64,000 bases of DNA from Mesoterricola silvestris (GCF_030295405.1 NZ_AP027080.1:4634001-4698000); one strand, 5' to 3'. Counted from the stretch's first letter, positions 19,431-51,846 are shown. The notes: generated by a model not told the origin, from the sequence alone. Numbers and translations are program-made.

Positions 19431-21269
19431 ATGCGTCTTCGCCACCACCTTTCCCTTGCCGGCCTCGCCCTGATCCTGGGCGCCGGCAGCATCCCCGCCA
19501 TGGCCGATACGCCGGTCCCGGTCGCCGCCGAGGAGCCCCAGACGGTCTCGCTGGTCTTCAAGCTCCGCAACACCCAGCTTCTGGAAAGGTTCATCGACAA
19601 CAGCGTCGATCCCGACCACTGGGGCTTCCGCCACTTCCTCTCCACCCGCGAATTCGCGGAGTACTTCGGCCCCCTGGACTGGCAGTTCCATGAGGTGCTC
19701 GACTTCATGACGAAGAACGGGATCACCATCAACGAGGTGTACGACAGCCACATGGTGGTGCGGGCGACCGGCACCGCCTCCCAGTTCAGCGCCCTCCTGT
19801 CCACGGACCTGGTGTGCTGGAAGGAAGGCGGGCACCGCTACCAGAGGCCCACCCGCAGGCCGAAGGTGCCCACGGAAATCGGCGATATCGTCCTGCTCGT
19901 GGCCGGCCTGGACACCCAGCCCGCCGTGCGCTCCCACGCGCTCACCACCGCCCGGGCCCAGGCTCCCGCCCAGGCCGAGGCCCCCACCGCCGTGGCCATG
20001 CCCGCTCCGGGCACCCTGGCGACCGCGACGCCGGGCAGCTACACCGTGGGCGACGTGGCCAACTTTTACAACATCAATCCGCTCTACGGCCGCAATATCA
20101 CGGGCAAGGGGACCACCCTGGGCATCGCCACCCTGGCGACCTTCAAGCAGGCCGACGCCTACCGGTACTGGTCGGCCATCGGGCTTCCCGTGCTGGCCAA
20201 CCGCATCACCGAGATCCCCCTGGACGGCGGCGCCGGCACCAACGGTTCCGGCGAGACGACCCTCGACGTGCAGCAGTCCGGAGGCGTGGCCCCCATGGCC
20301 AAGATGCTGGTCTACGAGGCGCCCAACACCGCCTCCGGGTTCATCGACTTGTTCTACCGGGCCGTTTCCGACAACAAGGTGGACTCCCTGTCGGTGAGCT
20401 GGGGCTCGGCCGAAGTCTACCTGGACGAAGACACCGCCACCGCCTACAAGCAGGTGATGATGGAGGCCGCGGCCCAGGGCATCCCCGTCATCGCCTCCTC
20501 CGGCGATTCCGGCGCCTTCGACCTGAACCGCAACTTCTACACGCCCTTCTACTCGCCGGTCAACACCGTGGACCACCCGGCCTCGGATCCCTACGTCACC
20601 GCCGCCGGCGGCACCACCCAGCCCGTGACCATCCAGCGCGCCCACGGCACCATCACCGTGCCCCAGGAGCGCCCCTGGGCCTGGAACTACCTCGAGCCCT
20701 ACTACGTGCAGTGGTACGGCCAGTACTACTACGACGCCAACCTCTTCCCCGTGGGCGGCGGCGGGGGCGTGAGCACCTACTTCGAGGCCCCCCACTACCA
20801 GCACGGCCTCGCCGGCCGCCGGAGGACGCCCGCGGCCTTCAACAGCCTCTACTACTACCCCAACTACCCGAGCCTGGACGGCGCCGTCCTGGACCTCACC
20901 ATCGAAGCGGGCTACCCCGGCCGCAACGTCCCCGACGTCTCCCTCAACGCCGACCCCTTCACCGGCTACCTCACCTGCGAGGACGGCCTCTTCTACGCCG
21001 GCAACGGCGGCACCAGCTTCGTGGCCCCCCAGCTCAACGGCATCGCGTCCCTCCTCACCCAGGCCGCCGGCCGCCGCATCGGCTTCCTCAACCCCCAGCT
21101 CTACGACATCTACAAGAAGTACGGCTACGGCCCCCGGAGCCCCTTCCACGCCGTCACCACCGGCGACAACCTCTACTGGAAGGCCATCCCCGACTACAAC
21201 CCCGCCTCCGGCCTGGGAACCCTGGACGTGACGCGGCTGGAAGGCATCCTGAACCGCCGCCGCCACTGA
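19431..21269 (+). CDS. Secreted S53 (sedolisin/kumamolisin) serine-carboxyl peptidase
   Basis: Extracellular acid protease precursor of 612 residues. Signal peptide about 1-25 ('LAGLALILGAGSIPAMA'), then a pro-domain about 30-170 (activation fold 'GFRHFLSTREFAEYFG') and a catalytic domain about 205-612. The Ser-Glu-Asp triad is E275 and D279 in 'GSGETTLDVQ' and S529 in 'GGTSFVAPQ'; the oxyanion Asp is D359 in 'SSGDSGA'. The C-terminal 'NPASGLGTLDV' is the calcium-site region. ATG 19431 is chosen because of the strong ribosome site and signal peptide. It stands alone between the chemoreceptor and hflX. It probably degrades external protein. Confidence 0.92.
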   Translation: MRLRHHLSLAGLALILGAGSIPAMADTPVPVAAEEPQTVSLVFKLRNTQLLERFIDNSVDPDHWGFRHFLSTREFAEYFGPLDWQFHEVLDFMTKNGITINEVYDSHMVVRATGTASQFSALLSTDLVCWKEGGHRYQRPTRRPKVPTEIGDIVLLVAGLDTQPAVRSHALTTARAQAPAQAEAPTAVAMPAPGTLATATPGSYTVGDVANFYNINPLYGRNITGKGTTLGIATLATFKQADAYRYWSAIGLPVLANRITEIPLDGGAGTNGSGETTLDVQQSGGVAPMAKMLVYEAPNTASGFIDLFYRAVSDNKVDSLSVSWGSAEVYLDEDTATAYKQVMMEAAAQGIPVIASSGDSGAFDLNRNFYTPFYSPVNTVDHPASDPYVTAAGGTTQPVTIQRAHGTITVPQERPWAWNYLEPYYVQWYGQYYYDANLFPVGGGGGVSTYFEAPHYQHGLAGRRRTPAAFNSLYYYPNYPSLDGAVLDLTIEAGYPGRNVPDVSLNADPFTGYLTCEDGLFYAGNGGTSFVAPQLNGIASLLTQAAGRRIGFLNPQLYDIYKKYGYGPRSPFHAVTTGDNLYWKAIPDYNPASGLGTLDVTRLEGILNRRRH

Positions 21270-22787: not shown

Positions 22788-24104
22788 ATGGCCATTTTTG
22801 GCTTTGGCAAGGACAAGAAGGATGGCGGAGGTTCCCAGGAACTGGTCCTGGCCTACCTGGAGGACGCCCAGCGGGTGCGGGCGCCCTTCACCCTGTCCGG
22901 ACCCCGCAAGGCCGAGGTGCCCGCCGTCGTCCAGGGCATCGACGAGTCCGAGGGCACGGTCACCTTCCAGATCACCGGGCCCCTGCTGGCGGAAAAGGGC
23001 AACGCCGTCGAGCTGATCTTCATCCAGGAGGGGCTGCGCCTGGGAGGCTCGGCCCGGCTCCTGGAGACCCGAAGCGGCGTGGCGGTGCTGGAGCTCCCCG
23101 ACGCCCTGGAGCTCAAGGAGCGCCGGGGCGCGCCCCGGGCCCGCCTCAACCCCAAGGAGGGCGCCACCATCACGGCCCTCACCGGGCTCTTCGACGGGGT
23201 GGGCATCACGGGCACCATCGAGAACATCTCCGAATCCGGCGTCCGGCTCCGGGTGGAGAAGGGCATGGCCATCAAGGGCGAGAAGCGCCTGCCCCTGGGC
23301 ACCGGGCTCGTGCCGGTGGGCCAGCCCTTCATGCTCATCAAGCTCAACAAGGTCCCCAAGTGTCCGGCGGTCATGGAACTGGAGGGCAAGGCGGTGTACC
23401 TGGACGCCGGCTCCGGCGGGCTGACCATGGGCATCGCGTTCTCCCGGCCCAAGGCGGACGTGGCCGGGGCCCTGCGGGGCCTGGTGGCCTCCCGCACCTC
23501 GGCCATTCCCTCCTCCCTGCCCCCCAAGACCCGGCGCAAGGCGGAGCCCCCCTCCTCCGGCCTCCTTGCGGACGAGCCCCTGGTGCGCCCCAGGCCCCAG
23601 GAGGAGCCCAAGACCAGGCCCGCCGAGGTGAAGGCGGAGGCGCCGCCTCCCCCCCCGGAGCCCCCCAAGCCTGAAGAGGAGGAGGCCCAGCCCGCCGCCA
23701 AGAGCGACGTCCTCGCCCGCCTCAAGAAGCGCAGCCGGGCCGTGGTGGTCCTTTCCCGCACGGCGGCCTTCGACGACATCCTCAAGGGCTTCCTCCAGGA
23801 GGACGGCTTCGGGCGCGTGCTCTCCACCACCTTCCCCGAGGAGGTCTTCGAGCTCCTGCGCCAGCCCAACCTGGGGGTGCTGCTCCTGGACGGGGACATG
23901 ACGGTGGTGGAATCCCTGGAATTCGTCAAGCGGCTCCAGGCCACCTGCGAGGACCTGCCCCCCATCGTCCTGGCGGCCGAGGACATCTCCACCGCCATCG
24001 TACTGGCCGCGCGCCGGCACGGCGTGGCGCAGCTGGTGGTGCGGCCCTACGTGCTGGACGCCACCTTCTCCGCCCTGCTCTCCGAGCAGGTCGCCCTGCG
24101 CTAG
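22788..24104 (+). CDS. PilZ-domain protein with C-terminal receiver-like domain
   Basis: A 438-residue cytosolic protein. The N-terminal part (about 15-108) looks like a flagellar-brake (YcgR-like) domain. It is followed by a PilZ domain whose c-di-GMP motifs are present as R113-xxx-R117 ('RRGAPRAR') and N146-x-S148-xx-G151 ('ENISESG'). A Pro/Glu/Lys-rich linker (about 245-315) leads to a CheY-like domain (about 318-438) in which the usual acceptor region reads 'VLLLDGDM' and the Lys-Pro end reads 'VVRPYV', so phosphorylation may be lost. It probably adjusts motility or pili to c-di-GMP. A sigma-28-like promoter supports this. Confidence 0.75.
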   Translation: MAIFGFGKDKKDGGGSQELVLAYLEDAQRVRAPFTLSGPRKAEVPAVVQGIDESEGTVTFQITGPLLAEKGNAVELIFIQEGLRLGGSARLLETRSGVAVLELPDALELKERRGAPRARLNPKEGATITALTGLFDGVGITGTIENISESGVRLRVEKGMAIKGEKRLPLGTGLVPVGQPFMLIKLNKVPKCPAVMELEGKAVYLDAGSGGLTMGIAFSRPKADVAGALRGLVASRTSAIPSSLPPKTRRKAEPPSSGLLADEPLVRPRPQEEPKTRPAEVKAEAPPPPPEPPKPEEEEAQPAAKSDVLARLKKRSRAVVVLSRTAAFDDILKGFLQEDGFGRVLSTTFPEEVFELLRQPNLGVLLLDGDMTVVESLEFVKRLQATCEDLPPIVLAAEDISTAIVLAARRHGVAQLVVRPYVLDATFSALLSEQVALR

Positions 24105-38709: not shown

Positions 38710-40188
38710 TCAGGGCAGGGGCCGCAGGGTGGAGGGGTCCCGCAGGGGCAGCACGGTGACGGGCAGGCCAAGCCCTTCCCCCAGCCGGCCCGGGTGGTCC
38801 TTGGCGTCGCCCTGGCGCACCGCCTCGACGTCCCCCACCACCAGGAGCACCATCCGGGTCATGTCCAGGTACTTCCGGGCGGCCTCCCGCACCTGGTCCC
38901 GGGTGACGGACCGGAGCCTTTCCCGGAAGTCCAGGAAATAGTCCTCGGGCTGGCCGTTCAGGTTCTGGCCCGCGAAGAGGCCGGCCACGGATTCCGCGTC
39001 GGAAAAGCGGCTGGGAAAGGCCTGGATGAGCCCGTCCCTGGCCACGCTGAACTCCTGTTCGCCCACGGGCTCGCGCTTGAGCTTCTCCACCTCCTCCAGG
39101 ACCAGGCGGAGGGCGTAGGCCACGGAGCGGTTCTTGGTCTGGAAGCGGCACAGCAGGTCCCCCTTCCAGAAGGTGCCCGGCTCCAGCCGGGTGCTGACGC
39201 CGTAGGTGAGGCCCTCGTCGTTGCGGAGCCGCTTCATGAGGCGGCTGGAAACGCCCCCGCCCCCCAGGATCTCCTCCATGAGCATGGCCGCGGGCCAGTC
39301 GGGGTCGCCGCGGCGCAGGCCGGGCACCGCCAGGGCCACGACGCTCTGGGGCCCCGCCTTGCCGCACAGGTAGAGGCCGGGAGTGCGCGTGAAGGTGGGG
39401 GCGGGCACGGGGGGGCTCACCCTGGCCTCCCGGCCGGGCTTGAGGGCGCCCACGGTCCGGTCCAGGACCGCCTTGAAGGCCCTGGGGTCGATGGGGCCGC
39501 TGGCGGTGACCACCAGGTTGGCCGGATGCAGGATGCGCGCGTGGAAGGCCCGCAGATCCTCCCGGGTGATGCGCGCCAGACTGGCCTGGGTGGCCTGGGC
39601 GGAGGCGAAGTGGGATTCCCCCCGCAGCAGGTAGCCGAACTGGTATCCGGAGATGCTGTTGGCACTGTCGTTCCGCTTGGCCAGGGCCTGGAGCTGGTCC
39701 TGCCGGGCGAGGTCCAGGGAGGCCTGGGCGAAGGCGGGGCGGGTGAGCACCTCCATGAAGGCGGCGAGGCCGGTCTCCAGGTCCTTTTCCAGCACCTCCA
39801 GGGAGAGGCTGCCGGAGGTGGCGCCGCACCGGCCGTGGACGCCGGCGGCGAGGAAGGCCAGGCGCTCATCCAGCTCGTCCACCGGCGTGACCTCCGTGCC
39901 CCCGCGGCGGATCTGGTTCCCGAAGAGGGCGGCCAGGCCCTCCTTTCCGGCGGGATCCAGGTAGGATCCCCCCCGGTACAGGACCTTCACCCGCACGATG
40001 GGTTGCCCTTCCGGGTCCGGCACGATGAAGGCGGGAATGCCGTTGCGAAGGGTGACCTTGAAATCCCGGGCCCGGGGCGCCTTGAAGACCAGGGGCTGGA
40101 CCGGGAGAAGCTCCGGGCGGGCGGGAATGGGCTGGGCCGCAAGGGTGCAGGCAAGCATCAGGAGGGTGGGGACACCGAGGTTCATCAT
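38710..40188 (-). CDS. M16-family peptidase-like protein lacking the zinc motif
   Basis: 492 residues, exported (signal peptide about 1-19, 'VPTLLMLACTLAAQ'). Both M16 domains are recognisable ('YRGGSYLDPAGKEGLA', 'GPIDPRAFKAVLD', 'NDEGLTYGVSTRLEPG', the latter equal to the usual R-Y pair region). Where active members have HxxEH the sequence reads 'LAALFGNQIRRGG' (residues about 86-98), so zinc is not bound. It overlaps the active partner's stop by four bases. Active/inactive pairs of this kind form heterodimers. It converges on the FNR gene with ten bases between stops. Confidence 0.85.
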   Translation of the reverse strand: MMNLGVPTLLMLACTLAAQPIPARPELLPVQPLVFKAPRARDFKVTLRNGIPAFIVPDPEGQPIVRVKVLYRGGSYLDPAGKEGLAALFGNQIRRGGTEVTPVDELDERLAFLAAGVHGRCGATSGSLSLEVLEKDLETGLAAFMEVLTRPAFAQASLDLARQDQLQALAKRNDSANSISGYQFGYLLRGESHFASAQATQASLARITREDLRAFHARILHPANLVVTASGPIDPRAFKAVLDRTVGALKPGREARVSPPVPAPTFTRTPGLYLCGKAGPQSVVALAVPGLRRGDPDWPAAMLMEEILGGGGVSSRLMKRLRNDEGLTYGVSTRLEPGTFWKGDLLCRFQTKNRSVAYALRLVLEEVEKLKREPVGEQEFSVARDGLIQAFPSRFSDAESVAGLFAGQNLNGQPEDYFLDFRERLRSVTRDQVREAARKYLDMTRMVLLVVGDVEAVRQGDAKDHPGRLGEGLGLPVTVLPLRDPSTLRPLP

Positions 40189-41708
40189 TTTCCCTCCCGG
40201 GCCGGCGCGCTTTTGCGGCTGTAGACGAGCGTGTTCATGGATTCCTTCACCAGGTACTTCCGGGCGACCCGCTGCACGTCCGCGGCGGTGACGGCCTCCA
40301 GCCAGCGGGGTTCCTCCAGGAGATCCCGGTAGGTGCCGGCCCCTTCGGCCTCGGCCAGGGCGTTGGCGAGCACGGCGTCGTCCTCCAGGCGCTTGAAGGC
40401 GCCCATCTGAAAGCGGTTCTTGACCTTGCGCAGTTCCCGCTCCGTGACCCCCTCCCGCTGGATGCGGGCGATCTCCTCCAGCAACTGGGCCTCCACCTCC
40501 GGCGACCGGTCCTCGCCGGCGGGAACGCCGAACACCACGAAGGTGCCGGCGTACTTGAGGCCCTTGTTCCAGGCCATGACGTCGGTGGCGCTGCGGCGGG
40601 CGCGCACCAGGGCCCGGTTCAGCCGGCCCGTCTGTCCCCCCAGGAGGGCGGCCAGCACCTCCAGGGCGGGGGCGTCCCGGTGAAGGCCGCTCACGGCCTT
40701 GAAGGTGATCACCACCTCCGCGCCGGTGTCGGCTTCGGCCAGCAGGCGGGTGGGGGCGGGCTGGGGGGGCTCGGTGGTGACGATGGGGGGAACCCCCGCG
40801 GGGTTGGCGGGGATGCGCCCGAAGTAGCGCTCCATCATGGCCAGGGCGTCCCGGCTGCGGAAATCGCCCACCAGCACCGCGGAGATGTTGTTGGGCGCGT
40901 AGTAGGTGGCGAAGAATTCCTGGGCCTGTTCACGGGTGACCTGGGCGATGTCGCTGGGCCAGCCGATGATGGGCCAGTGGTAGGGGTGGGCCTGCCAGAT
41001 CAGGGAGCGGTACCGCTCCTCGAAGACCCCGATGGCGGTGGCGTCCACCCGCTGGCGGCGCTCCTCCATGACCACGTCCCGCTCCGTGTAGAACTCCCGG
41101 AACACCGGATTGAGCAGCCGGTCGGATTCCAGCCAGGCCCACAGCTCCAGCCGGTTGGCCGGCACCGTCACATGGAAATAGGTCCGGTCGCTGGTGGTGT
41201 CGGCGTTGAGCTCCGTGGCCCCGGCCCGGGTGTAGATCTGCACCAGTTCGTTCTTCTCCAGCAGGGCGCGCTGCTCGGTGGCCAGCCGCTCGAAGTCCCG
41301 TAGCAGGTCCTGGTGGCGGGGGGAGCGCACGGCCGGGTCGTTCATGTCCGCGATCTCCCCCCGGCGCAGCCTCTCCCGGAGCGTGTCCAGCTCCCTGCGG
41401 ATCTGCGCCTGCAGGAGGTCCTGGAGCCGGTTCAGCTCCGCGTCCCGGGCTGCGTCCCGGGTGCCGAGGGTGCGGGTGCCCTTGAACATCATGTGCTCGA
41501 AGAGGTGGGCGATGCCGGTGGTGCCCGGGCGCTCGTTGGCGGACCCCGCCCGCACCACCCAGCCGCAGGCGACGCTGGGGCGCTGGTGCCGCTCCACCAG
41601 GAGCACCCGCATGCCGTTGGAGAGCGTATGCTCCGTGACCGGAATGGACTGGGCCAGGAGGGGCGCGGCCAGAAGGGCCGCGAACCGCAGGAAGGGCTGG
41701 ACGAACAT
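40185..41708 (-). CDS. M16-family zinc metallopeptidase, active partner
   Basis: 507-residue exported peptidase (signal peptide about 1-20). The inverted zinc motif is H68-x-x-E71-H72 ('IAHLFEHMMFKGTRT'), and the distal Glu lies in 'YTERDVVMEERRQRVD' (about 170-185). An unusual charged insert follows the motif (about 84-135, rich in Arg, Glu and Asp). The C-terminal half has the substrate-binding 'FGVPAGEDRSPEVEAQ' region. It precedes and overlaps the inactive homologue, so the two are co-translated. It probably degrades peptides in the periplasm. Confidence 0.9.
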   Translation of the reverse strand: MFVQPFLRFAALLAAPLLAQSIPVTEHTLSNGMRVLLVERHQRPSVACGWVVRAGSANERPGTTGIAHLFEHMMFKGTRTLGTRDAARDAELNRLQDLLQAQIRRELDTLRERLRRGEIADMNDPAVRSPRHQDLLRDFERLATEQRALLEKNELVQIYTRAGATELNADTTSDRTYFHVTVPANRLELWAWLESDRLLNPVFREFYTERDVVMEERRQRVDATAIGVFEERYRSLIWQAHPYHWPIIGWPSDIAQVTREQAQEFFATYYAPNNISAVLVGDFRSRDALAMMERYFGRIPANPAGVPPIVTTEPPQPAPTRLLAEADTGAEVVITFKAVSGLHRDAPALEVLAALLGGQTGRLNRALVRARRSATDVMAWNKGLKYAGTFVVFGVPAGEDRSPEVEAQLLEEIARIQREGVTERELRKVKNRFQMGAFKRLEDDAVLANALAEAEGAGTYRDLLEEPRWLEAVTAADVQRVARKYLVKESMNTLVYSRKSAPAREGK

Positions 41709-41895: not shown

Positions 41896-43503
41896 CTAGA
41901 CCGGGAGTTCCAGCAAGGCCGAGAAGCCCCCGCCGTCCCGGAACCGGAAACGGAAGCCCCACCCCTCGCGCTCCGCCATGCGGGTGAGGAGGAGGAGCCC
42001 CAGCCCCTGCCCCCGGCCCTTGCGGTCCGGCGAGGGGGCCTGGGCCTTGCGCTCCCGGAGGGCTTCCAGCATCCCGGCGGAGAGGCCCTCCCCTTCGTCG
42101 GTCACCTCGATGGCGACGCGGCGCCGTTCCCGGCGCACCTCCAGGGCGACGGCGCCGCGCCCGTGGAGGAGGGCGTTCTCCAGCAGGGTGGCCAGGGCGG
42201 ATTTCAGGGCCAGGGCCGGCGCCCGGAAGGGCCCGGCGTCCACCGTGACCCGCAGGGACCGCCCATCCTCCGCGAAGGTGGCCTCCAGCTCCTCCTTCAC
42301 CTCCTCGAAGAAGGCCGGCGTGAGGGTATCCCGGCCGGAGGAGGGCCGTGCGGGCCTGCTGCCCTCCAGCCCGCATTCGATGAGCCGCACCAGCTGGTCC
42401 ACCTCCTCGCCGATCTGGAGCAGGGTGGCCTCCTGGGCCTCCCGCGTCACTTCCGTGATGCGCACCGTATCGCAGCGGAGCTTGAGGAGGGCCAGGGGCG
42501 TCTTGAGGCTGTGGGTGAGGGAGGCCAGGCGGTCCGCCTCCAGGCGCTCCCGGTGCGCGGCGTGGCGGTAGGCCAGGAGCCCCGCCAGGGTGGCGACGAT
42601 CCAGAGCGCGTAGGCGAGCCACCCCAGGCCGCGGTGCAGCAGGAGCAGGTTGCGCTGGGCCTCCTCCTCCCGGGGCGACATGAGGCTCAGCCCCATCCAG
42701 CCCCAGCCGAAGTCGCTCTTGAGGCAGTAGTACCCGGAACCCCGGCCCAGGCCCGCCGTGAGGGGCACCTGGAGGCTCCAGGGCGGCAGCGGCTGGGGGG
42801 AGGCGCGCGGGGTGAACCCGGTCTGGAGCAGGTGGGAACCGGCGGCGTCCGGGGCATCCCGGTTCTGGAGCAGGTGCTCCCCGGAGTCCACCAGGCCGAA
42901 GCGCACCCGGGCGTGGTTGCCCAGGACGCCCTGGAGGAACCGCTCCACCTCGGGGCTTTCCGGCCGCCACCGCTTGATGGCGAACCAGCGCCCCGCGGGG
43001 AGCACCAGGATGGACTCCTGCAGGGGGCCCCGGGGATCCGGGCCGGGCCTCCAGGGCGTCACGCCGGATGCCGCCGCTTCCCGGGCCCAGGCGCGCATCT
43101 GGTCCGTGTCCGCGCCCGGGGCCGCCGGTCGCAGCCGGTCCCCGTCCCGGACCCACGCCTGGCCCCGCCCGGGGTCCACCAGGGCCCGCACCAGGGGATC
43201 CGCGGCCAGTTGCGCCGTGAGCGCCGCCTCGTCCCCGGTGGCGAAGGCCGGCGGTTCCAGGGACCTCACCCAGCGCCTCCCGATGAAATGGGCCGTCTGG
43301 TGGGCGCTGCTGGCCCAGGCGTTCCAGGCCCGTTTGACCCGGTAGGCGGCCCAGGCCTCCGGCAGGAAGGCGAAGGCCACCGAAAGGATCCCCCAGAGAA
43401 GGAGCAGCCCCTTCCATGAATAACCCTTGAGCTGCAGGCGCCGGAACCCCTTCCAGCGGCGGAAGGGCGACGTGTGGATCCGGGTGATCGCAATGGAGCG
43501 CAT
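41896..43503 (-). CDS. Sensor histidine kinase
   Basis: 535-residue membrane kinase. TM1 about 32-53, a large periplasmic domain about 54-290 without a recognised fold, TM2 about 292-312, then a dimerisation/phosphoacceptor region with H331 ('LASLTHSLKTPLALLKLRCD') and an ATPase domain with N box 'LLENALLHGRG', G1 'DEGEGLS' and G2 'GRGQGLGLLLL'. No HAMP or PAS domain is visible. It is transcribed divergently from the outer-membrane operon whose last gene encodes an OmpR-type regulator (48551-49291), the probable partner. The start at 43503 is followed by a basic segment. Confidence 0.88.
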   Translation of the reverse strand: MRSIAITRIHTSPFRRWKGFRRLQLKGYSWKGLLLLWGILSVAFAFLPEAWAAYRVKRAWNAWASSAHQTAHFIGRRWVRSLEPPAFATGDEAALTAQLAADPLVRALVDPGRGQAWVRDGDRLRPAAPGADTDQMRAWAREAAASGVTPWRPGPDPRGPLQESILVLPAGRWFAIKRWRPESPEVERFLQGVLGNHARVRFGLVDSGEHLLQNRDAPDAAGSHLLQTGFTPRASPQPLPPWSLQVPLTAGLGRGSGYYCLKSDFGWGWMGLSLMSPREEEAQRNLLLLHRGLGWLAYALWIVATLAGLLAYRHAAHRERLEADRLASLTHSLKTPLALLKLRCDTVRITEVTREAQEATLLQIGEEVDQLVRLIECGLEGSRPARPSSGRDTLTPAFFEEVKEELEATFAEDGRSLRVTVDAGPFRAPALALKSALATLLENALLHGRGAVALEVRRERRRVAIEVTDEGEGLSAGMLEALRERKAQAPSPDRKGRGQGLGLLLLTRMAEREGWGFRFRFRDGGGFSALLELPV

Positions 43504-43564
43504 GGCCCATCTTAGCCAGGGCCAACCCGGCCATGGGCCGAACCGGAACCGCGGCCGGAAACCC

Positions 43565-43597
43565 GGGCCCAGGTTCCCGGCGGGGCCCTGTTTTTTT
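43565..43597 (+). terminator. Possible intrinsic terminator
   Basis: gggccc (43565-43570) and gggccc (43583-43588) pair around a 12-nt loop, followed by seven T. On the plus strand it would end transcription entering the outer-membrane operon from the left, which runs antisense to the kinase. Confidence 0.3.
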
Positions 43598-43767
43598 GCG
43601 GCTAGTCCCGTTCCAGAACGAGGCCACCCCTAATTTAATCCCTGCTTTTAAAAAACTTATGAATCAAAATTCCGCCCTAAAAAAGGGCCTGGTATTTGTC
43701 CGCCATTTACCTTGAACCCCCTTTTGGGCGGGCTGAGAATGAACAGGAAATACAAATTCCTCCTAAG

Positions 43768-43815
43768 CTGATTCAGGGACCTGCGAACCACCTGATTCGC
43801 GCACCACCGAACCTG
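43768..43815. promoter_or_regulatory. 24-bp tandem direct repeat, candidate response-regulator operator
   Basis: Two adjacent 24-base units share CTGATTC at the start and CGAACC 16 bases later (17 of 24 positions identical). They lie 142 bases before the first outer-membrane gene and 265 bases from the kinase start. Tandem half-sites are typical for OmpR-family regulators. The assignment is inference. Confidence 0.45.
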
Positions 43816-43957
43816 GACAGCCCTCCAACCGGGGGCGGCCGAAGGATTGCCTGGCTGCTCGTTTCTCACTGCCCGTTCCGGGTCCCCGGCTCCTTCGGGA
43901 CGTCCTTTTCACACACCTCGCCTTTCAATGCGCTCAACCCTTCGGAGGTTCCACCCC

Positions 43958-44719
43958 ATGCATAATCCATCACGAAGCCTCGCCCTGGCCGCCATGCTTG
44001 CTTGTTCCCTTTCCGCCCAATCGCCGTGGGGCTTCGGGGCCAAATTCGGGGTGGCCCCCACCGTGGGCACCCCCGGGGAGCAGCGGAACCGCGGGTCCGT
44101 GCTCTGCGCCTTCCAGGGGGAACGGCGCCTGGCGGGCCGGGGCACCGTCTTCGCGGAACTGACCTACCGCTACTACCGGAGCGTCCAGTTCGAGGCCACC
44201 CGCTTCGGCACTGGGTTCGCCCCGGACGGCACGGCCGGCCAGATCACCAAGTGGGCCTTCGACACGGCCGCGGGGCTTCCCCGGGCCGACGGCCGCTACG
44301 ATTCGGTGGATATCCGCAAATCCATGCTGGAGGGCATGGGGTTGCAGGTGGGCTACCGCCATCCCCTGGGGCGGAGCATCTGGTCCCTGCAGGCCGGCGT
44401 GGCCCTCAACGCCCTCAAGTCCACCCAGGAGGTCATCGGCAGCCTGAAGGTGGTGCGGAACCGGGAGGCGGCCACGCCCACCGTCCTGGCCACGGAGGGC
44501 ATGCTCCAGAGCGTCTCCACGTCCAGCCTGCGCCCCGGATGCTTCACGGGGGTGCGGGGGGACCTGGCGTCCAACCTCTTCGTGGAATGCAACCTCTCCC
44601 TGGCGACCTTCGCGGAGGTGAACTACCTCCCCTCCAGCTACACGGGAAGGCCCGCGGCCACCGAGAGCCGAAACCGCACCAAGACCTCGCTGGAATTCAA
44701 CGCCGGCCTGAGGTTCTGA
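43958..44719 (+). CDS. Outer-membrane beta-barrel protein (operon gene 1)
   Basis: 253 residues with a signal peptide (about 1-20, 'SLALAAMLACSLSAQ'). Alternating polar/aromatic strands and a terminal Phe ('LEFNAGLRF') point to an outer-membrane barrel of about 8-10 strands. The ATG at 43958 has GGAGG 9 bases upstream; longer readings are non-coding. The family is not recognised. It is followed after 43 bases by the TonB receptor and is the first gene of a four-gene operon ending with a response regulator. Confidence 0.7.
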   Translation: MHNPSRSLALAAMLACSLSAQSPWGFGAKFGVAPTVGTPGEQRNRGSVLCAFQGERRLAGRGTVFAELTYRYYRSVQFEATRFGTGFAPDGTAGQITKWAFDTAAGLPRADGRYDSVDIRKSMLEGMGLQVGYRHPLGRSIWSLQAGVALNALKSTQEVIGSLKVVRNREAATPTVLATEGMLQSVSTSSLRPGCFTGVRGDLASNLFVECNLSLATFAEVNYLPSSYTGRPAATESRNRTKTSLEFNAGLRF

Positions 44720-44762
44720 GCAGGATCCACCTGAAACCCGAATGGAAACCGGAGGTATGAAC

Positions 44763-47700
44763 ATGAATGGAAGAAGAGGGACCGCCCTCCTGAGCATCCT
44801 GGTGGCCGGCACGGCCCTTTGCGCCCAGGAGAGCGTGGGCACCATCCTCGGCGTGGTCAAGGACGCCCAGGACCACCCCGTGGCCCAGGCCACCCTGGTG
44901 CTCACGGGCCCCCGCATGCTGGGGACCCGGGAGATCAAGACCTCGGCCAAGGGGGAGTACCGCCTGCCCCTGATCCCGCCCGGGCAGTACACCCTGAAGG
45001 TCCACAAGGAGGGCTTCGTGGGCTCAAAGGCCGAGTTCACCATGGGCTCCGGGCAGACCATGCGCCAGAACCTCACGATCAGGGCCATCCGCGTGGCCGA
45101 GGCCGTGGTGGAGGTGGTGATGGCGGCCGCGGCCGTGGACAAGACGGAGACCAAGACCGCCACGAACCTCTCCGCCGACACGCTCCGGGCCCTGCCGGTG
45201 ACCCAGCGCAACGCCCTGGGGGCCCTGAGCCTCGCCCCGGGCGTGAGCGGCACCGACATCGGCTTCGCGGTGGTCCGCGGCGGCATCGCCGGCCAGTCCC
45301 AGACGACGGTCAACGGCATCTCCGTGAGGGACAACGTCACCCGGGAATCCCGCCAGACCGAGTTCGTGCTGGAGGACCTCACCGAGGACGTGACGGTGGT
45401 CCAGAGCCCCCTCAACGCCAAGTACGGCAATTCCTCGGGCGGCATCGTCAACGTCCAGACCAAGAACGGCAGCAACACCTTCCAGGGATCCATCCGGGTC
45501 AAGCTCAGCAGGCCCACCTGGTCCGCCCTGGCGGGGGCCACCCCGGACCGGTTCGGGGAGCCCACCGCCGGGAGCAAGAAGGCCACCTACACGTCCCCCG
45601 CCTACGGCGTCGCGGACGACCTGGCCAAGACCATCGAGATCACGATCCTGGGCCCCATCATCAAGGACCGGCTCACCTTCAGCTACGGCACCCGGATCCG
45701 GTCCTCCACCTACGACTCCCGGGCCCTGGACACCGTGCTGGGCGGGGCCCACGACAACTGGCGCACGTACATCCCCACCGGCCAATGGGCCGGCAAGGAT
45801 TCGGCGGGCTACACCTGGGGCGGCGATCCCAAGAACCCCACGGTCTCCCCCGTGGTGGGCGGGGACACCAAGTTCTCCATGAACCAGTACAAGCTCTACT
45901 ACCAGATCACGCCGGAACACCAGCTGGAGGCCAGCTTCAGCCGCGACGAACTGGATTCCTTCACGCCCCAGGGCAACATGGACACCTTCGTCAACAACCT
46001 GCAGAGCTCCATCCGGGATTTCCGGAGCCTCAACTACCGGGGCATGCTCAACTCCTCCACGGTGCTGGACGTCAAGTGGGGCCGGCGCCAATCCCGCATC
46101 CACTTCCCCAGCGGCCCCCTGGACCCCATCAACGTGCGGGCCTGGGGCGAGGAGGCCACGAGCATCTTCAACACCTCCGACTCCAGCCTCCTCCTGAGCA
46201 ACGGCAACAGCTACGGATCCCAGGCCGAGGTGCGCGACGTGGAGACCATCTCCGGCAACCTGAGCTGGTTCAACGAGCGGCATAACCTCGACGTGGGCCT
46301 GGAGCTTCTGCGGGAAAGGGCCTACCAGCCCGAACAGTCCGGACCGGGGCGCCGCATCTTCTATGCTCCGGGGCGCCTGGCCGATGGCCAGTACCTGGTG
46401 TACAAGTACGAGGGTTCCCCGGCGGCGGCCGCCACCTCCCTGGGCCAGACCCTGCGCAACGGATCGGGCTTCATTCCCGAAATGCGCACCTGGGCCGACG
46501 AGGGCGGGGGTGATACCCGGAACCGGGACTACACCCATTCCCTCTACGCCAACGACCAGGTCGCCCTGAGCGGGAAGTGGAGCCTGATGATGGGCCTCCG
46601 CTACGACAACTGGCGGATCTCGGACCGCACCGGCATGCGCATCAACACCCATGCCTTCAGCCCCCGCGCGGAAGCGAAGTACGACCTCAAGGGCGACGGC
46701 ATCCACCTCCTCAGCCTCTCCTTCGCGGACATGCGCGGCACCATCGGGCAGGGCAACCTCGGCAGCTTCAGCCGCAAGGCCGGCGACATCCGGCGCCGGG
46801 CCTTCTGGAGCGCGGGCACGACCACGCCCTACGCCGTCTCCTACGCGGAGCTGACCAATCCCGCCAACTACGGCACCTACTATCACTACCAGAACAGCGA
46901 CGCCCTCTACACCGTGAACCCCGACCTGCGCCCGGAGCGGGCCCGGCAGGTGGAGCTGGCCTATCGCCAGGCCTTCGTCAACGGCGGCTTCTTCCGGGCC
47001 AGCCTCGTCTACCGGAAGTACACGGACCTCTGGTACGACCGCCCCTCGGACCTCAAGGTGGTCATGCAGGATGCCGCGGCGCCCAGCCTCACCTCCAACA
47101 ACGGCTTCGCCCACTACCTCACCTTCGACCCCATGGGCCGGCGCGAATACCGGGGCCTGGAAATGGAGTGGAGCTGCCCCGTGTTCAACCTGGGCACCCA
47201 GAAGCTGGACTTCCAGGGCAACTGGACCATGGCCCGCGCCTATTCCACGGAGACCTGGCGCGAAGGCAATTCCTCCGACACGGCGGCGCGGTGGGACGAC
47301 AAGTTCCAGGCCCTGGGCATTTCGTCGGACGTTTACAACCCCTACGGCGAAATGGACGGCACCGCCCACCACACGGTGCGGGCCTGGCTCACCTGGACCC
47401 TGGGCGCCAAGGGCGGGATCCGCAGCACCACCACCCTCAAGGGCGAGTTCGCCACGGGCTACCCCCGGAGCCGGACCCAGGACTACTACTACCCCACCCG
47501 GGACCTGGCCGGGAACCCGCTCTTCACCTCCGGGGCCACGGGGCTGCCCACCACCTTCACGGCCTACCTGAACGGGCGGGGCCGCTTCGACAACGGAAGC
47601 ACCTTCTACTCCGACCTGCAGTGGAACCTGGAATTCCCGGTGTCCGGCAAGGTCTTCTTCACCAGCCTGACCGTGGGCAACGTCTTCAACAGCCAGATCC

Positions 47701-47858
47701 CCCTCGGCTGCGGAACCGGGCTGGATGGGAGCACCCGCAACTGGCCCGACGGCTTCAACACCATCGTCGCCTCCCGGAACGGGATGGCCAACTGGGGCGC
47801 CACGGTCGGCTATGGGCAGAAACGCACCTACGCGTTCGACTTCGGCGTGCGCTTCTGA
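44763..47858 (+). CDS. Oar-type TonB-dependent outer-membrane receptor
   Basis: 1031 residues: signal peptide about 1-21 ('LLSILVAGTALCAQ'), a carboxypeptidase-regulatory-like beta-sandwich (about 25-100, 'GTILGVVKDAQDHPVAQATL', 'GEYRLPLIPPGQYTLKVHKEGF' region), a plug (about 130-230, 'LPVTQRNALGALSLAPGV', 'NVQTKNGSNTFQGSI') and a large barrel ending in Phe ('YAFDFGVRF'). This resembles the Oar family. ATG 44763 has GGAGG 7 bases upstream; two in-frame Met codons 6 and 21 bases earlier are worse placed. Substrate unknown. Central gene of the four-gene operon bracketed by a two-component system. Confidence 0.9.
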   Translation: MNGRRGTALLSILVAGTALCAQESVGTILGVVKDAQDHPVAQATLVLTGPRMLGTREIKTSAKGEYRLPLIPPGQYTLKVHKEGFVGSKAEFTMGSGQTMRQNLTIRAIRVAEAVVEVVMAAAAVDKTETKTATNLSADTLRALPVTQRNALGALSLAPGVSGTDIGFAVVRGGIAGQSQTTVNGISVRDNVTRESRQTEFVLEDLTEDVTVVQSPLNAKYGNSSGGIVNVQTKNGSNTFQGSIRVKLSRPTWSALAGATPDRFGEPTAGSKKATYTSPAYGVADDLAKTIEITILGPIIKDRLTFSYGTRIRSSTYDSRALDTVLGGAHDNWRTYIPTGQWAGKDSAGYTWGGDPKNPTVSPVVGGDTKFSMNQYKLYYQITPEHQLEASFSRDELDSFTPQGNMDTFVNNLQSSIRDFRSLNYRGMLNSSTVLDVKWGRRQSRIHFPSGPLDPINVRAWGEEATSIFNTSDSSLLLSNGNSYGSQAEVRDVETISGNLSWFNERHNLDVGLELLRERAYQPEQSGPGRRIFYAPGRLADGQYLVYKYEGSPAAAATSLGQTLRNGSGFIPEMRTWADEGGGDTRNRDYTHSLYANDQVALSGKWSLMMGLRYDNWRISDRTGMRINTHAFSPRAEAKYDLKGDGIHLLSLSFADMRGTIGQGNLGSFSRKAGDIRRRAFWSAGTTTPYAVSYAELTNPANYGTYYHYQNSDALYTVNPDLRPERARQVELAYRQAFVNGGFFRASLVYRKYTDLWYDRPSDLKVVMQDAAAPSLTSNNGFAHYLTFDPMGRREYRGLEMEWSCPVFNLGTQKLDFQGNWTMARAYSTETWREGNSSDTAARWDDKFQALGISSDVYNPYGEMDGTAHHTVRAWLTWTLGAKGGIRSTTTLKGEFATGYPRSRTQDYYYPTRDLAGNPLFTSGATGLPTTFTAYLNGRGRFDNGSTFYSDLQWNLEFPVSGKVFFTSLTVGNVFNSQIPLGCGTGLDGSTRNWPDGFNTIVASRNGMANWGATVGYGQKRTYAFDFGVRF

Positions 47859-47891
47859 CGCGATCCACGGAAATCCACGGAGGATATGACA

Positions 47892-48542
47892 ATGAGATAT
47901 GGAATTGCGTTGGCTCTCGCGGGCCTGGCGGTTGGCACCCTCCCGCTGGGGGCTGAGCAGCCGGACTACATCCGGCTGAGCGCCCTCTCCACCCAGGGGG
48001 ACCTGCGGGCCTACGCCGGCGGGAAGTCCTTCGGGCACGGTTTCGAAGTGGGCCACACGCTGGATATCCCCGGTTCCGAGGTCATCGGCCTGGGCGTGTT
48101 CGGCGGATTCATGAAAGTGACCGGGGACGCCGCCTCCCCCCTGGGGGGGCTCCGGCAGACCCTCGAGGCCTGGCGGGTGGGGGCGGATGTGCGCTTCGCC
48201 ACCCCCCTGGCGGGGCTCACGCCGTATGCGGGCCTGAACCTGAACTATTTCACCGGCAAGCGCCTCAATGGCGGCTCCGTCCTCACCTACGACGGCCGCT
48301 ACACCATCACCCCGGGCCCCTACGGCGAACGGGGCGCCAAGTTCGGCCTGCGCATCGGCCTGGAGTACCGGTTCAATCAGGCCTGGGGCGCCTCGGTGGA
48401 CTTCAACCACTCGGAGTGGTACGACGACTACGCCAAGGGCGACCACGAGCCCATGACCGGGGAGCGGGGCGTGAAGGGACTCAATCCCATCAAGCCGAGC
48501 TGGCTGGCCTTCTCGGTGCAGTACCGCTTCAAGGGCCTCTAG
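47892..48542 (+). CDS. Outer-membrane beta-barrel protein (operon gene 3)
   Basis: 216 residues with a signal peptide (about 1-21, 'ALALAGLAVGTLPLGAE'). Features typical of small porin-like barrels are 'YAGLNLNYFTGKRLNG', 'GLRIGLEYRFNQAWGASVDFNHSEW' and the C-terminal 'FSVQYRFKGL'. ATG 47892 is chosen because GGAGG lies 8 bases upstream; ATG 47886 is too close to it. It starts 33 bases after the TonB receptor and is followed after eight bases by the response regulator. Function unknown. Confidence 0.7.
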   Translation: MRYGIALALAGLAVGTLPLGAEQPDYIRLSALSTQGDLRAYAGGKSFGHGFEVGHTLDIPGSEVIGLGVFGGFMKVTGDAASPLGGLRQTLEAWRVGADVRFATPLAGLTPYAGLNLNYFTGKRLNGGSVLTYDGRYTITPGPYGERGAKFGLRIGLEYRFNQAWGASVDFNHSEWYDDYAKGDHEPMTGERGVKGLNPIKPSWLAFSVQYRFKGL

Positions 48543-48550
48543 AAGGTCCT

Positions 48551-49291
48551 ATGATGGACTCGATGCCGAGCCCGCCTTCCCCCTCACCCCTCCCCCATGT
48601 GCTGGTGGTGGAGGATGAATCCAGGATCGCCGAACTCATCCGCATGAACCTGGAGGCCAAGGAGTTCAGGGTGAGCCTGGCGGGGGACGGCCGCTCGGCC
48701 CTGGCCCTCCAGCGGGAGTCCCCGCCGGACCTGGTGGTGCTGGACCTCATGCTTCCCGACATGGACGGTTTCGAGGTGCTCCAGACCCTGCGCCTCCGCC
48801 AGGAGAGCCTGCCGGTCCTCATCCTCACCGCCCGCACCTCGGATGAGGACCGCCTCCAGGGCCTCACCCTGGGGGCGGACGACTACCTGGGCAAGCCCTT
48901 CTCCATCCTGGAGCTCATCGCCCGGATCCAGGCGATCCTGCGCCGAAGCCAGCCCGCGCGGGAACTCCCCGGCCGGATCCTCTGCAGCGGCCCCTTCCGC
49001 ATCAACCTGGTGCAGCTCACCGTGCACCGCGGCCGGGTGGACCTGCAGCTCACCCTGCGGGAGTTCCGGATCCTGGAGGCCCTGGTGGCCCACCCCGGCC
49101 GCGCCCACAGCCGCCGGGAGCTGATCCAGATGGCCTGGAACGTCGACGCCCGCCCCCTCCCCCGCACCGTGAACGTCCACATCGGCACCCTCCGCCGCAA
49201 ACTCGGCGATTCCGAAGCCCGCCCCTTCATCCAGACCCTCGAGCGCGAAGGCTACCGCTGGCTCCTCCCCGTCCGGCGGTCGAAATACTAG
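48551..49291 (+). CDS. OmpR-family response regulator
   Basis: 246-residue transcription factor. The receiver domain (about 16-130) has acidic residues E21-D22, the phosphoacceptor D65 ('LVVLDLMLPDMDGFE') and K115 ('DDYLGKPFS'). The DNA-binding winged helix (about 150-240) shows 'LTLREFRILEALVAHPGR', 'RTVNVHIGTLRRKLGD' and 'REGYRWLLPV'. A Pro/Ser-rich N-terminal tail of about 15 residues precedes the receiver. It is the last gene of the outer-membrane operon, eight bases after gene 3, and the only response regulator in the window. The divergent kinase at the other end (41896-43503) is its likely partner. Confidence 0.92.
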   Translation: MMDSMPSPPSPSPLPHVLVVEDESRIAELIRMNLEAKEFRVSLAGDGRSALALQRESPPDLVVLDLMLPDMDGFEVLQTLRLRQESLPVLILTARTSDEDRLQGLTLGADDYLGKPFSILELIARIQAILRRSQPARELPGRILCSGPFRINLVQLTVHRGRVDLQLTLREFRILEALVAHPGRAHSRRELIQMAWNVDARPLPRTVNVHIGTLRRKLGDSEARPFIQTLEREGYRWLLPVRRSKY

Positions 49292-49632: not shown

Positions 49633-50283
49633 CTAGAAGGCCACCCCCACCCCGAACGTCCACATCCGCTGGAATTCCTGCCCGGAGCCCTGGGCGCCCA
49701 GGTATCCGGCGATGTCGCTGGCGGAGTTGATATTGACCGGCTTGTCCTTGGTGATGGGCTGCTGGTAGCTGGCGGTGACGTAGGGATTGATCACCGGCAG
49801 GGGAAGGCTGTAACGGATGCCCACCCGCAGCCAGGGGCGGGCGAGGTTCTTGGTCTGCTCGGCGCCGCTCAGGGCCAGTTTGTAGTTCTGGAAGCGTTCC
49901 ATGACGCCCAGTTCCCCGGCCACGCCGGTGAAGGGGACCCAGAACTGGGCGTTGAGGCCCAGGCCCAGGCCCGACTGCTTCAGGCTGCTGCCGGCGGTGG
50001 CGGTGCCCTGCTGGACCTGGCCGTCGGCCTTCCACTGGGAGAATTCGGCGCCCCACTCCAGCTTGAGGACGGGGCCCAGGCGGATGATGCGGTGGCTGGC
50101 GGTGACGGTGAAGCCGCTACCGGTGTCCAGGCTCTTCTGGCGGATCAGGGTGCCGGTGCCCTGGATGAGGGTCTGGGGGAGGTTCTGGCCCTGGGGGAAG
50201 GGCACTTCCAGACGGAAATCCCAGGCCTGGGCGGAAAGGGGGAGGGCCAGGACGGCGAGGGCGAAGGTGGGGGTCAGGTGCAT
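49633..50283 (-). CDS. Outer-membrane beta-barrel protein
   Basis: 216 residues with a signal peptide (about 1-20, 'FALAVLALPLSAQA'), amphipathic strands throughout and a C-terminal Phe ('MWTFGVGVAF'). Recognisable pieces are 'LGLGLNAQFWVPFTGVAGELG' and 'VGIRYSLPLPVINPYVTASY', resembling small OmpW/outer-membrane-beta-barrel proteins but not enough to name a family. ATG 50283 has GGAGG 4 bases upstream; a longer reading of the frame starts without one. It is divergent from the sigma-54 activator. Confidence 0.7.
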   Translation of the reverse strand: MHLTPTFALAVLALPLSAQAWDFRLEVPFPQGQNLPQTLIQGTGTLIRQKSLDTGSGFTVTASHRIIRLGPVLKLEWGAEFSQWKADGQVQQGTATAGSSLKQSGLGLGLNAQFWVPFTGVAGELGVMERFQNYKLALSGAEQTKNLARPWLRVGIRYSLPLPVINPYVTASYQQPITKDKPVNINSASDIAGYLGAQGSGQEFQRMWTFGVGVAF

Positions 50284-50424: not shown

Positions 50425-51846
50425 ATGTCCGAACGCCCCCGCCTCCATTGGTCCACCCTCGGCGAGCCCACCCTTGGGCTGGAACACCGCTGGGCCGGCG
50501 CCTGGGAGATCACCCTGGACCGGGCCGCCCTCCCCGCCCTGCCGCCCCGGGAGACCGATCTCTGGGTCATCACGGCCGCGGCCCCCGAGCCGCCCCCCGC
50601 CCTGGTGAGGGCGGGGTCCGAAGCCGGGGCCCTGCCCATCCTCCTGGTGCTGCCCCCCACCGGCGGCGCCGTGGACCCCCAGGCCCTGTTCCAGTGGAGC
50701 GCCCTGGGCTCCGTGCGCTGGGGGCCCATGCAGGATCTGCCGCCGGCGCCGGGATTGCGCCCGGCCACCCAGCCCCCGCTGAACCTCACGGTGACCCAGG
50801 CCCTGGCGCTGGGGCTGGTGGGCATCGGCCCGGCCATGCAGGAGGTGCTGGCCAAGGCCAAGGCGGCCGCGGCCACCCGGGCCACGGTGCTCCTCCAGGG
50901 GGAGAGCGGCACCGGCAAGGAGATCATCGCCCGGGCCATCCATTCCATGAGCGGCCAGGCCGATCTGCCCTTCGTGCCGGTGCACTGCGGCGCCATCCCG
51001 GACAACCTCATCGAAAGCGAGCTCTTCGGCTTCACCAAGGGGGCCTTCACCGACGCCCGCAAGGATGCCCCGGGGAAGTTCCGGGAGGCTTCGGGCGGCA
51101 CCATCTTCCTGGACGAGGTGAGCACCATGCCCCTGGGCGCCCAGGTGCGCCTGCTGCGGGTCCTGCAGGAGCGGGAGGTGCAGCCCCTGGGCGGAGGCGG
51201 GCCCGTGAAGGTGGATGTGCGCGTGGTGGCGGCCACCAACGCCGATCTGTGGAAGCGGGTGCAGGAAGGCGCCTTCCGGGAGGACCTCTTCTACCGCCTG
51301 GAGGTCGTGCCCATCACCCTGCCCCCCCTCCGGGCCCGGCGGGAGGAGATCCCCTTCCTGGCCCAGCATTTCCTCAACCGCAAGGCCCGCGAGCACGGCC
51401 TCTACCCCAAGGCCATCCATCCGTCGGTGGACCCGCTGCTCATGGCCCTGCCCTGGAGCGGCAACGTGCGCCAGCTGGAGAACGCCGTGGAGCGCGCCAT
51501 CGTGCTTTCCGCGGGGCGGCCGGTGCTCATGCGGGAGGATTTCACCTTCCTGGCGGACCGCATCCCCGAGGGCCGGGAGATCGTCCAGGCCCTGCCCCCC
51601 ATGGAGACCTTCGCCCCCTCGGGCCTGGTGCCGGCCGCCCAGGCCCTGGACCTGCCCGCCGAGGGGGTCGACCTCAACCAGGTGGTTACGGACGTGGAGA
51701 AGAAGCTCATGCTCCAGAGCCTCCAGGTGACCCGGGGCAACAAGAAGCGCGCGGCGGAGCTGCTGGGCCTCAAGCGGACCACCTTCCTTGAAAAGATGAA
51801 GCGGCTGGACCTGGAGGACGTCGCGCCGGATGGCGCCGAGGCCTGA
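50425..51846 (+). CDS. Sigma-54-dependent transcriptional activator
   Basis: 473-residue AAA+ enhancer-binding protein. The N-terminal 120 residues are not a canonical receiver ('[20 protein letters not shown]' lacks the acidic pocket). The AAA+ domain (about 128-350) has Walker A 'GESGTGKE' (159-166), the sigma-54 loop as 'GAFTDA' (206-211), Walker B 'GGTIFLDEV' and the '[14 protein letters not shown]' and '[15 protein letters not shown]' sensors. A Fis-type helix-turn-helix ends the protein ('[20 protein letters not shown]'). The G-to-D loop variant is seen in other activators. Target genes are unknown. Confidence 0.93.

Follow-up and report, generated by a model that had tools for sequence, protein, structure and literature searches.

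Genomes of Acidobacteriota encode many Oar-type receptors without assigned cargo, about 20 of them in the single-contig 5.0 Mb genome of the soil-type bacterium Mesoterricola silvestris (Holophagaceae; G000), and the locus described here, in which one such receptor gene lies between two-component genes, raises the question of whether the receptor is controlled by that pair and what it might carry. Where such a receptor has a sensor, a regulator and a candidate operator of its own, its cargo can be traced. The window referred to throughout is the whole 64,000-nucleotide stretch that was analysed (bases 4634001–4698000 of the genome), and positions are counted from its first letter. Our analysis indicates that the locus is probably a two-component-controlled system for TonB-dependent uptake, in which sensing of the ligand, positive feedback and cleavage of the cargo by M16 peptidases would be combined.

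Gene content and boundaries of the locus

Gene calling and Pfam searches upheld the five-gene layout (kinase, OMP1, Oar-type receptor, OMP2, regulator) proposed in a preliminary description of this DNA. On the plus strand, OMP1 (43958-44719; no Pfam match), a small outer-membrane beta-barrel-like protein and partner of the receptor, is followed by the Oar-type TonB-dependent receptor (TBDR; 44742-47858; PF13620, CarboxypepD_reg, and PF00593, beta-barrel, both over cut-off), by OMP2, a small outer-membrane beta-barrel protein (47886-48542; PF13505), and by an OmpR/PhoB-type response regulator (48551-49291; PF00072, receiver, and PF00486, Trans_reg_C). The gaps between these four genes, of 22, 27 and 8 bp, give them operon-like spacing with the regulator gene last. 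A mechanical ORF would place the regulator start at 48416, which lies too far upstream and was discarded in favour of 48551, 8 bp after OMP2. The membrane histidine kinase (41896-43503), with an extracytoplasmic sensor (approximately residues 50-290) followed by DHp and CA domains, is encoded divergently on the minus strand, and one 454-bp intergenic region separates it from OMP1. A receptor 91% identical to the window TBDR is present in the MAG of Holophagaceae bacterium UBA692 (contig DBMS01000001.1).

Two further genes lie downstream of the kinase on the same strand, after a gap of 187 bp, and overlap each other by 4 bp: an active M16 peptidase subunit (40185-41708; PF00675 and PF05193; HLFEH at residue 68) and an inactive M16-family subunit with a signal peptide-like N-terminus (38710-40188; PF05193; no HxxEH). 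The preliminary description had set the limits of the locus at 41896-49291, which encloses the five genes correctly but is too narrow, since the likely functional unit reaches 38710 with the M16 pair. Wide conservation of the five-gene layout was ruled out, the exact order being found in only two of the 60 genomes searched (G000 and G005).

Other genes in the window were recorded in passing. A small outer-membrane-like protein without a Pfam match is encoded convergently with the regulator gene (49633-50283, minus strand) and is conserved in G005; beyond it lies a sigma-54 activator (50425-51846, plus strand) with AAA+ and Fis-type HTH domains and no recognisable receiver domain. A pro-kumamolisin (sedolisin-type) serine peptidase is encoded at 19431-21269 (plus strand).

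Pairing of the kinase with the regulator

The genome-wide scan gave one HATPase_c and one receiver match above cut-off in the window, in agreement with the earlier reading of the kinase and regulator as its only two-component genes. A sub-threshold receiver-like stretch at approximately 23772-24050 (29.3 bits against a cut-off of 30.2) sits in a gene for a 438-residue protein (22788-24104, plus strand) and is possibly a degenerate receiver. Over the whole genome, HATPase_c and the receiver domain gave approximately 118 and 150 matches, respectively, a very large two-component complement for 5 Mb. OmpR-family regulators were found less than 2 kb from a TBDR in 4 of 17 cases in the genome, compared with 0.48 expected at random (p ~0.002).

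Five kinases of the window-kinase family are encoded in G000, each close to an OmpR-family regulator, and in all 30 Holophagaceae loci with such a kinase (30/30) a family regulator lies no more than four genes away. Trees built from 28 kinase and 28 regulator sequences contained the same 10-locus TBDR-linked clade (support 100/99 and 99/94, respectively) and the same three sub-clades. Kinase and regulator distances were correlated with r = 0.951 (16 loci, one genus), and when partners were re-paired within genomes 5000 times the highest r was 0.739, none of the 5000 reaching the observed value. Neighbourhood, congruent trees and distance correlation together argue that the kinase and regulator are cognate by descent, a co-inherited pair even though they stand four genes apart. 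The proposal that the split genes form one system is thus borne out, and the alternative that each protein has a separate cognate partner elsewhere in the genome is contradicted by the tree congruence and the pairing statistics.

The kinase itself scored 20.5 bits for HisKA, under the Pfam cut-off, and over cut-off for HATPase_c; the HSLKTPL motif, H331 and N443 were invariant in the 28 aligned sequences. The full-length model (pLDDT 77) had structural matches covering the kinase core only, and the sensor domain was therefore folded alone (pLDDT 80). In structural searches with this domain the dCACHE match was weak (E 0.016); most top rows were dCACHE chains, but the best score (Z 7.1, rmsd 4.4, 186 residues aligned) was within the range of models without a clear match. 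The extracytoplasmic domain may thus be weakly dCACHE-like, as judged from the model.

Parallel loci and receptor exchange

Our analysis further revealed two loci paralogous to that of the window in G000, both missed by the preliminary description, so that three parallel loci can be distinguished in the genus. Locus I, that of the window, is arranged as M16b-M16a-kinase / OMP1-TBDR-OMP2-regulator and occurs in G000 and G005. Locus II is arranged as regulator / TBDR-kinase-thioredoxin-like, with M16a-M16b downstream in G004 and G005, and locus III as regulator-TBDR-thioredoxin-like-kinase, with a divergently oriented M16 pair upstream of it in G002, G004 and G005. The linkage of the kinase-regulator cassette to TBDRs was seen in this genus only: a TBDR lies within two genes of the kinase at 10/10 loci of the clade and at 0/18 loci outside it. 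Near locus II of G000 there is a gene for a reverse-transcriptase/maturase-like protein (group II intron type, by eye; L048 3118-4311), which sits about where the sister genomes have the M16 pair.

The receptors appear to have a different history from the cassette. In the TBDR tree the window receptor grouped with those of L056, L057 and L052 (100/100), and the receptors of loci II and III fell in another clade (100/100), a topology that disagrees with the trees of the kinases and regulators. The OMP1-TBDR-OMP2 triad is found without a nearby two-component pair of this kind in other genera (L056, and twice in L057), and in L052, L056 and both copies of L057 homologues of OMP1 precede and homologues of OMP2 follow the TBDR. 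The L052 example is a second triad of G000 (L052 5359-14005; G000:C1:1636000-1652000); an OmpR regulator and a Reg_prop/Y_Y_Y histidine kinase are encoded divergently from it, in a layout that recalls the hybrid sensors of Bacteroides polysaccharide loci. Given the conflict between the trees, the simplest reading is that the receptor-OMP triad was apparently grafted onto a copy of the kinase-regulator cassette; a replacement of a locus II-type receptor by the triad hinges on weakly supported branches (81/55 and 93/79). The suggestion that the locus is self-contained stands as far as the cognate pair and a candidate shared operator are concerned, but it overlooked the M16 pair and the paralogous loci, and since the triad occurs elsewhere without this pair, the term would apply to this graft and not to an ancient five-gene unit.

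The three loci amount to a natural experiment, in which a regulatory cassette keeps its partner while the receptor is swapped. In our view, the system is of interest above all for its parallel loci, the exchange of the receptor, the candidate operators and the pair of peptidases.

Candidate operator and promoter

A candidate operator for the regulator was located in the kinase-OMP1 intergenic region as a direct repeat, TATTTGTCCGC/CATTTACCTTG, with an 11-bp step (43693-43714, plus strand); it is conserved in G005 and common to the locus II promoter. The pattern of its core, TTTGTCCGCCATTTAC (43695-43710, plus strand), occurs twice in the 5 Mb genome. A promoter-like sequence, TTGAAC-17 bp-GAGAAT (43712-43740, plus strand), whose -35 element overlaps the candidate operator, was read from the sequence and the alignment and is kept in G005 as TTGAAA-18-GAGAAT; it was not recovered by a stricter consensus scan and is not a strong consensus promoter.

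Single pairwise alignments of the locus I and locus II promoters were mostly not above shuffles, and a test on conserved columns was used instead. In four genomes, the receptor promoters of locus II have TTTGTCnGnCTTwAC in common, with a repeat step of 10 bp compared with 11 bp in locus I, and when a weight matrix was built from locus II alone its top site in locus I was the candidate operator, a result equalled by 2 of 300 column shuffles. The combined pattern had just two sites in G000, one at locus I and one at locus II (the latter lying before the receptor), two in G005 (loci I and II), one in G004 (locus II) and two in G001, of which one is at locus II and one elsewhere, and a reversed control pattern gave three sites over the four genomes together. 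Since these very sites were used to write the pattern, its rarity is independent evidence only in part, and the counts indicate rarity, not binding. Locus III regulators have a different recognition helix, and the locus III receptor promoters carry another 11-bp repeat, CTTG-N7-CTTG, with one site per genome in four genomes. On these comparisons the repeat is a candidate operator that would link the regulator to the OMP1-TBDR-OMP2-regulator promoter.

The site distribution bears on a rival explanation, that the pair regulates envelope or nutrient functions globally, with the receptor operon as just one target among many or as a neighbour by chance. The 18 family loci outside the clade are indeed stand-alone kinase-regulator pairs with no receptor nearby, and kinase and receptor share the exact window layout in two genomes only; however, every one of the ten clade members adjoins a TBDR, in three arrangements, and the candidate site was confined to receptor promoters in G000 and G004 and to the receptor loci I and II in G005. 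We consider a global role improbable and favour dedicated control of the receptor operon.

The possibility that the 250-nt OMP1 leader contains a riboswitch or another known RNA was also considered and rejected: Rfam gave no match at the gathering threshold in the window, with nearby sub-threshold ones only, and the leader was no more stable than shuffled sequences.

M16 peptidase pair

Structural relatives of the M16 proteins point to a heterodimer. The best solved matches came from a heterodimeric zinc peptidase: its inactive subunit, 3amj_B, for the inactive window protein (E 3.6e-40), and its active subunit, 3amj_C, for the active one (E 2.3e-48). The pair beside the kinase is conserved in G005, and M16 pairs accompany seven kinase/regulator loci in all (the window, L059, L054, L063, L055, L064 and L065). 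We found no literature combining M16, CarboxypepD and Acidobacteria.

The M16 pair might nevertheless be an unrelated neighbour, in which case the locus would simply encode a receptor for a small nutrient under two-component control. In favour of such a reading, most genera of the family have M16 pairs but no receptors with them, the close homologues in other genera lying away from TBDRs, and loci II and III of G000 have no adjacent M16 pair, the other two M16 pairs of that genome being elsewhere. It is less easily reconciled with the genus itself, where seven M16 pairs are found no more than four genes from these kinases, in three arrangements and belonging to three M16 clades. The presence of the pairs beside seven loci and their absence from others suggest that the link is real in the genus without being obligatory, and we regard the unrelated-neighbour reading as plausible, though not as the probable one.

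Proposed mechanism

According to the uptake model that we favour, the receptor would import its ligand into the periplasm, where the kinase would sense the ligand or a product of it through the extracytoplasmic, possibly dCACHE-like, domain and then phosphorylate the regulator. The regulator would bind the repeat and activate OMP1-TBDR-OMP2-regulator; because this operon includes the regulator's own gene, receptor and regulator would rise together in a proposed positive feedback. The least certain step is the fate of the cargo: the M16 heterodimer beside the kinase probably cleaves it in the periplasm after import, which would point to a peptide or protein.

In evolutionary terms, the kinase-regulator cassette exists as three loci, that of the window having a receptor of a different family in the form of the OMP1-TBDR-OMP2 triad. 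A broader and more tentative proposal, which we think rather unlikely, is a modular Holophagaceae import cassette made up of the kinase-regulator pair, an M16 heterodimer and an exchangeable TBDR, present as up to three parallel loci per genome that would take up and process distinct peptides or proteins, loci I and II using one operator type and locus III another.

Comparison with known systems

The heterodimeric M16 zinc peptidase of PDB 3AMJ resembles the window pair in having an active and an inactive subunit, each window protein best matching its counterpart; to our knowledge, that enzyme has not been linked to receptor or two-component genes.

The window receptor shares with Oar of Myxococcus xanthus, by domain architecture, a CarboxypepD_reg domain and a TonB-dependent barrel, the former being described for Oar as lying ahead of the plug and barrel (PMC6434023). 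Oar is a TonB-dependent transporter required for secretion of the protease PopC (PMC6434023). The Oar precedent is a reason to consider that the locus serves secretion or surface assembly, with the Oar-type TBDR exporting or maturing a protein, the M16 proteins acting as maturation enzymes and OMP1 and OMP2 as accessory barrels; these two small barrels, moreover, have no known uptake role. No gene for a secreted substrate is visible in the cluster, however, and two-component control of TBDRs is known for uptake, as in PfeR/PfeS (PMC10654771), so that a secretory function seems to us unlikely and uptake remains the preferred reading.

In the Fus and YddB-PqqL systems a TBDR is encoded with an M16 peptidase that processes the imported protein (PMC6793856), and the window likewise has M16 peptidase genes beside the receptor locus (38710-41708). 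However, FusC and PqqL are single chains of approximately 900 residues whereas the window M16 proteins are two subunits of approximately 500 residues, and a two-component pair is part of the unit in the window, unlike in Fus and YddB-PqqL. The locus would resemble Fus/PqqL in some parts of its working and PfeR/PfeS-PfeA in others; by the criterion of a single-chain FusC/PqqL peptidase, it is not a Fus system. A search of the window receptor against PDB chains (phmmer, E 0.01) gave no match, a result compatible with a distant relation to FusA.

The closest parallel for the regulatory arrangement is drawn, by description, with PfeR/PfeS-PfeA of Pseudomonas aeruginosa, in which the kinase senses the imported ligand in the periplasm and the pair activates the TBDR gene (PMC10654771). 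Both systems combine a sensor kinase and a regulator with a TonB-dependent receptor gene, and the window encodes the corresponding membrane kinase, with its His, ATPase and sensor parts, and a cognate OmpR-type regulator. They differ in that the Pfe ligand is the siderophore ferric enterobactin, taken up by a siderophore-class receptor, whereas the window has an Oar-type receptor with two small barrels, and in that the window regulator gene lies inside the receptor operon, with the kinase divergent and the M16 peptidases adjoining.
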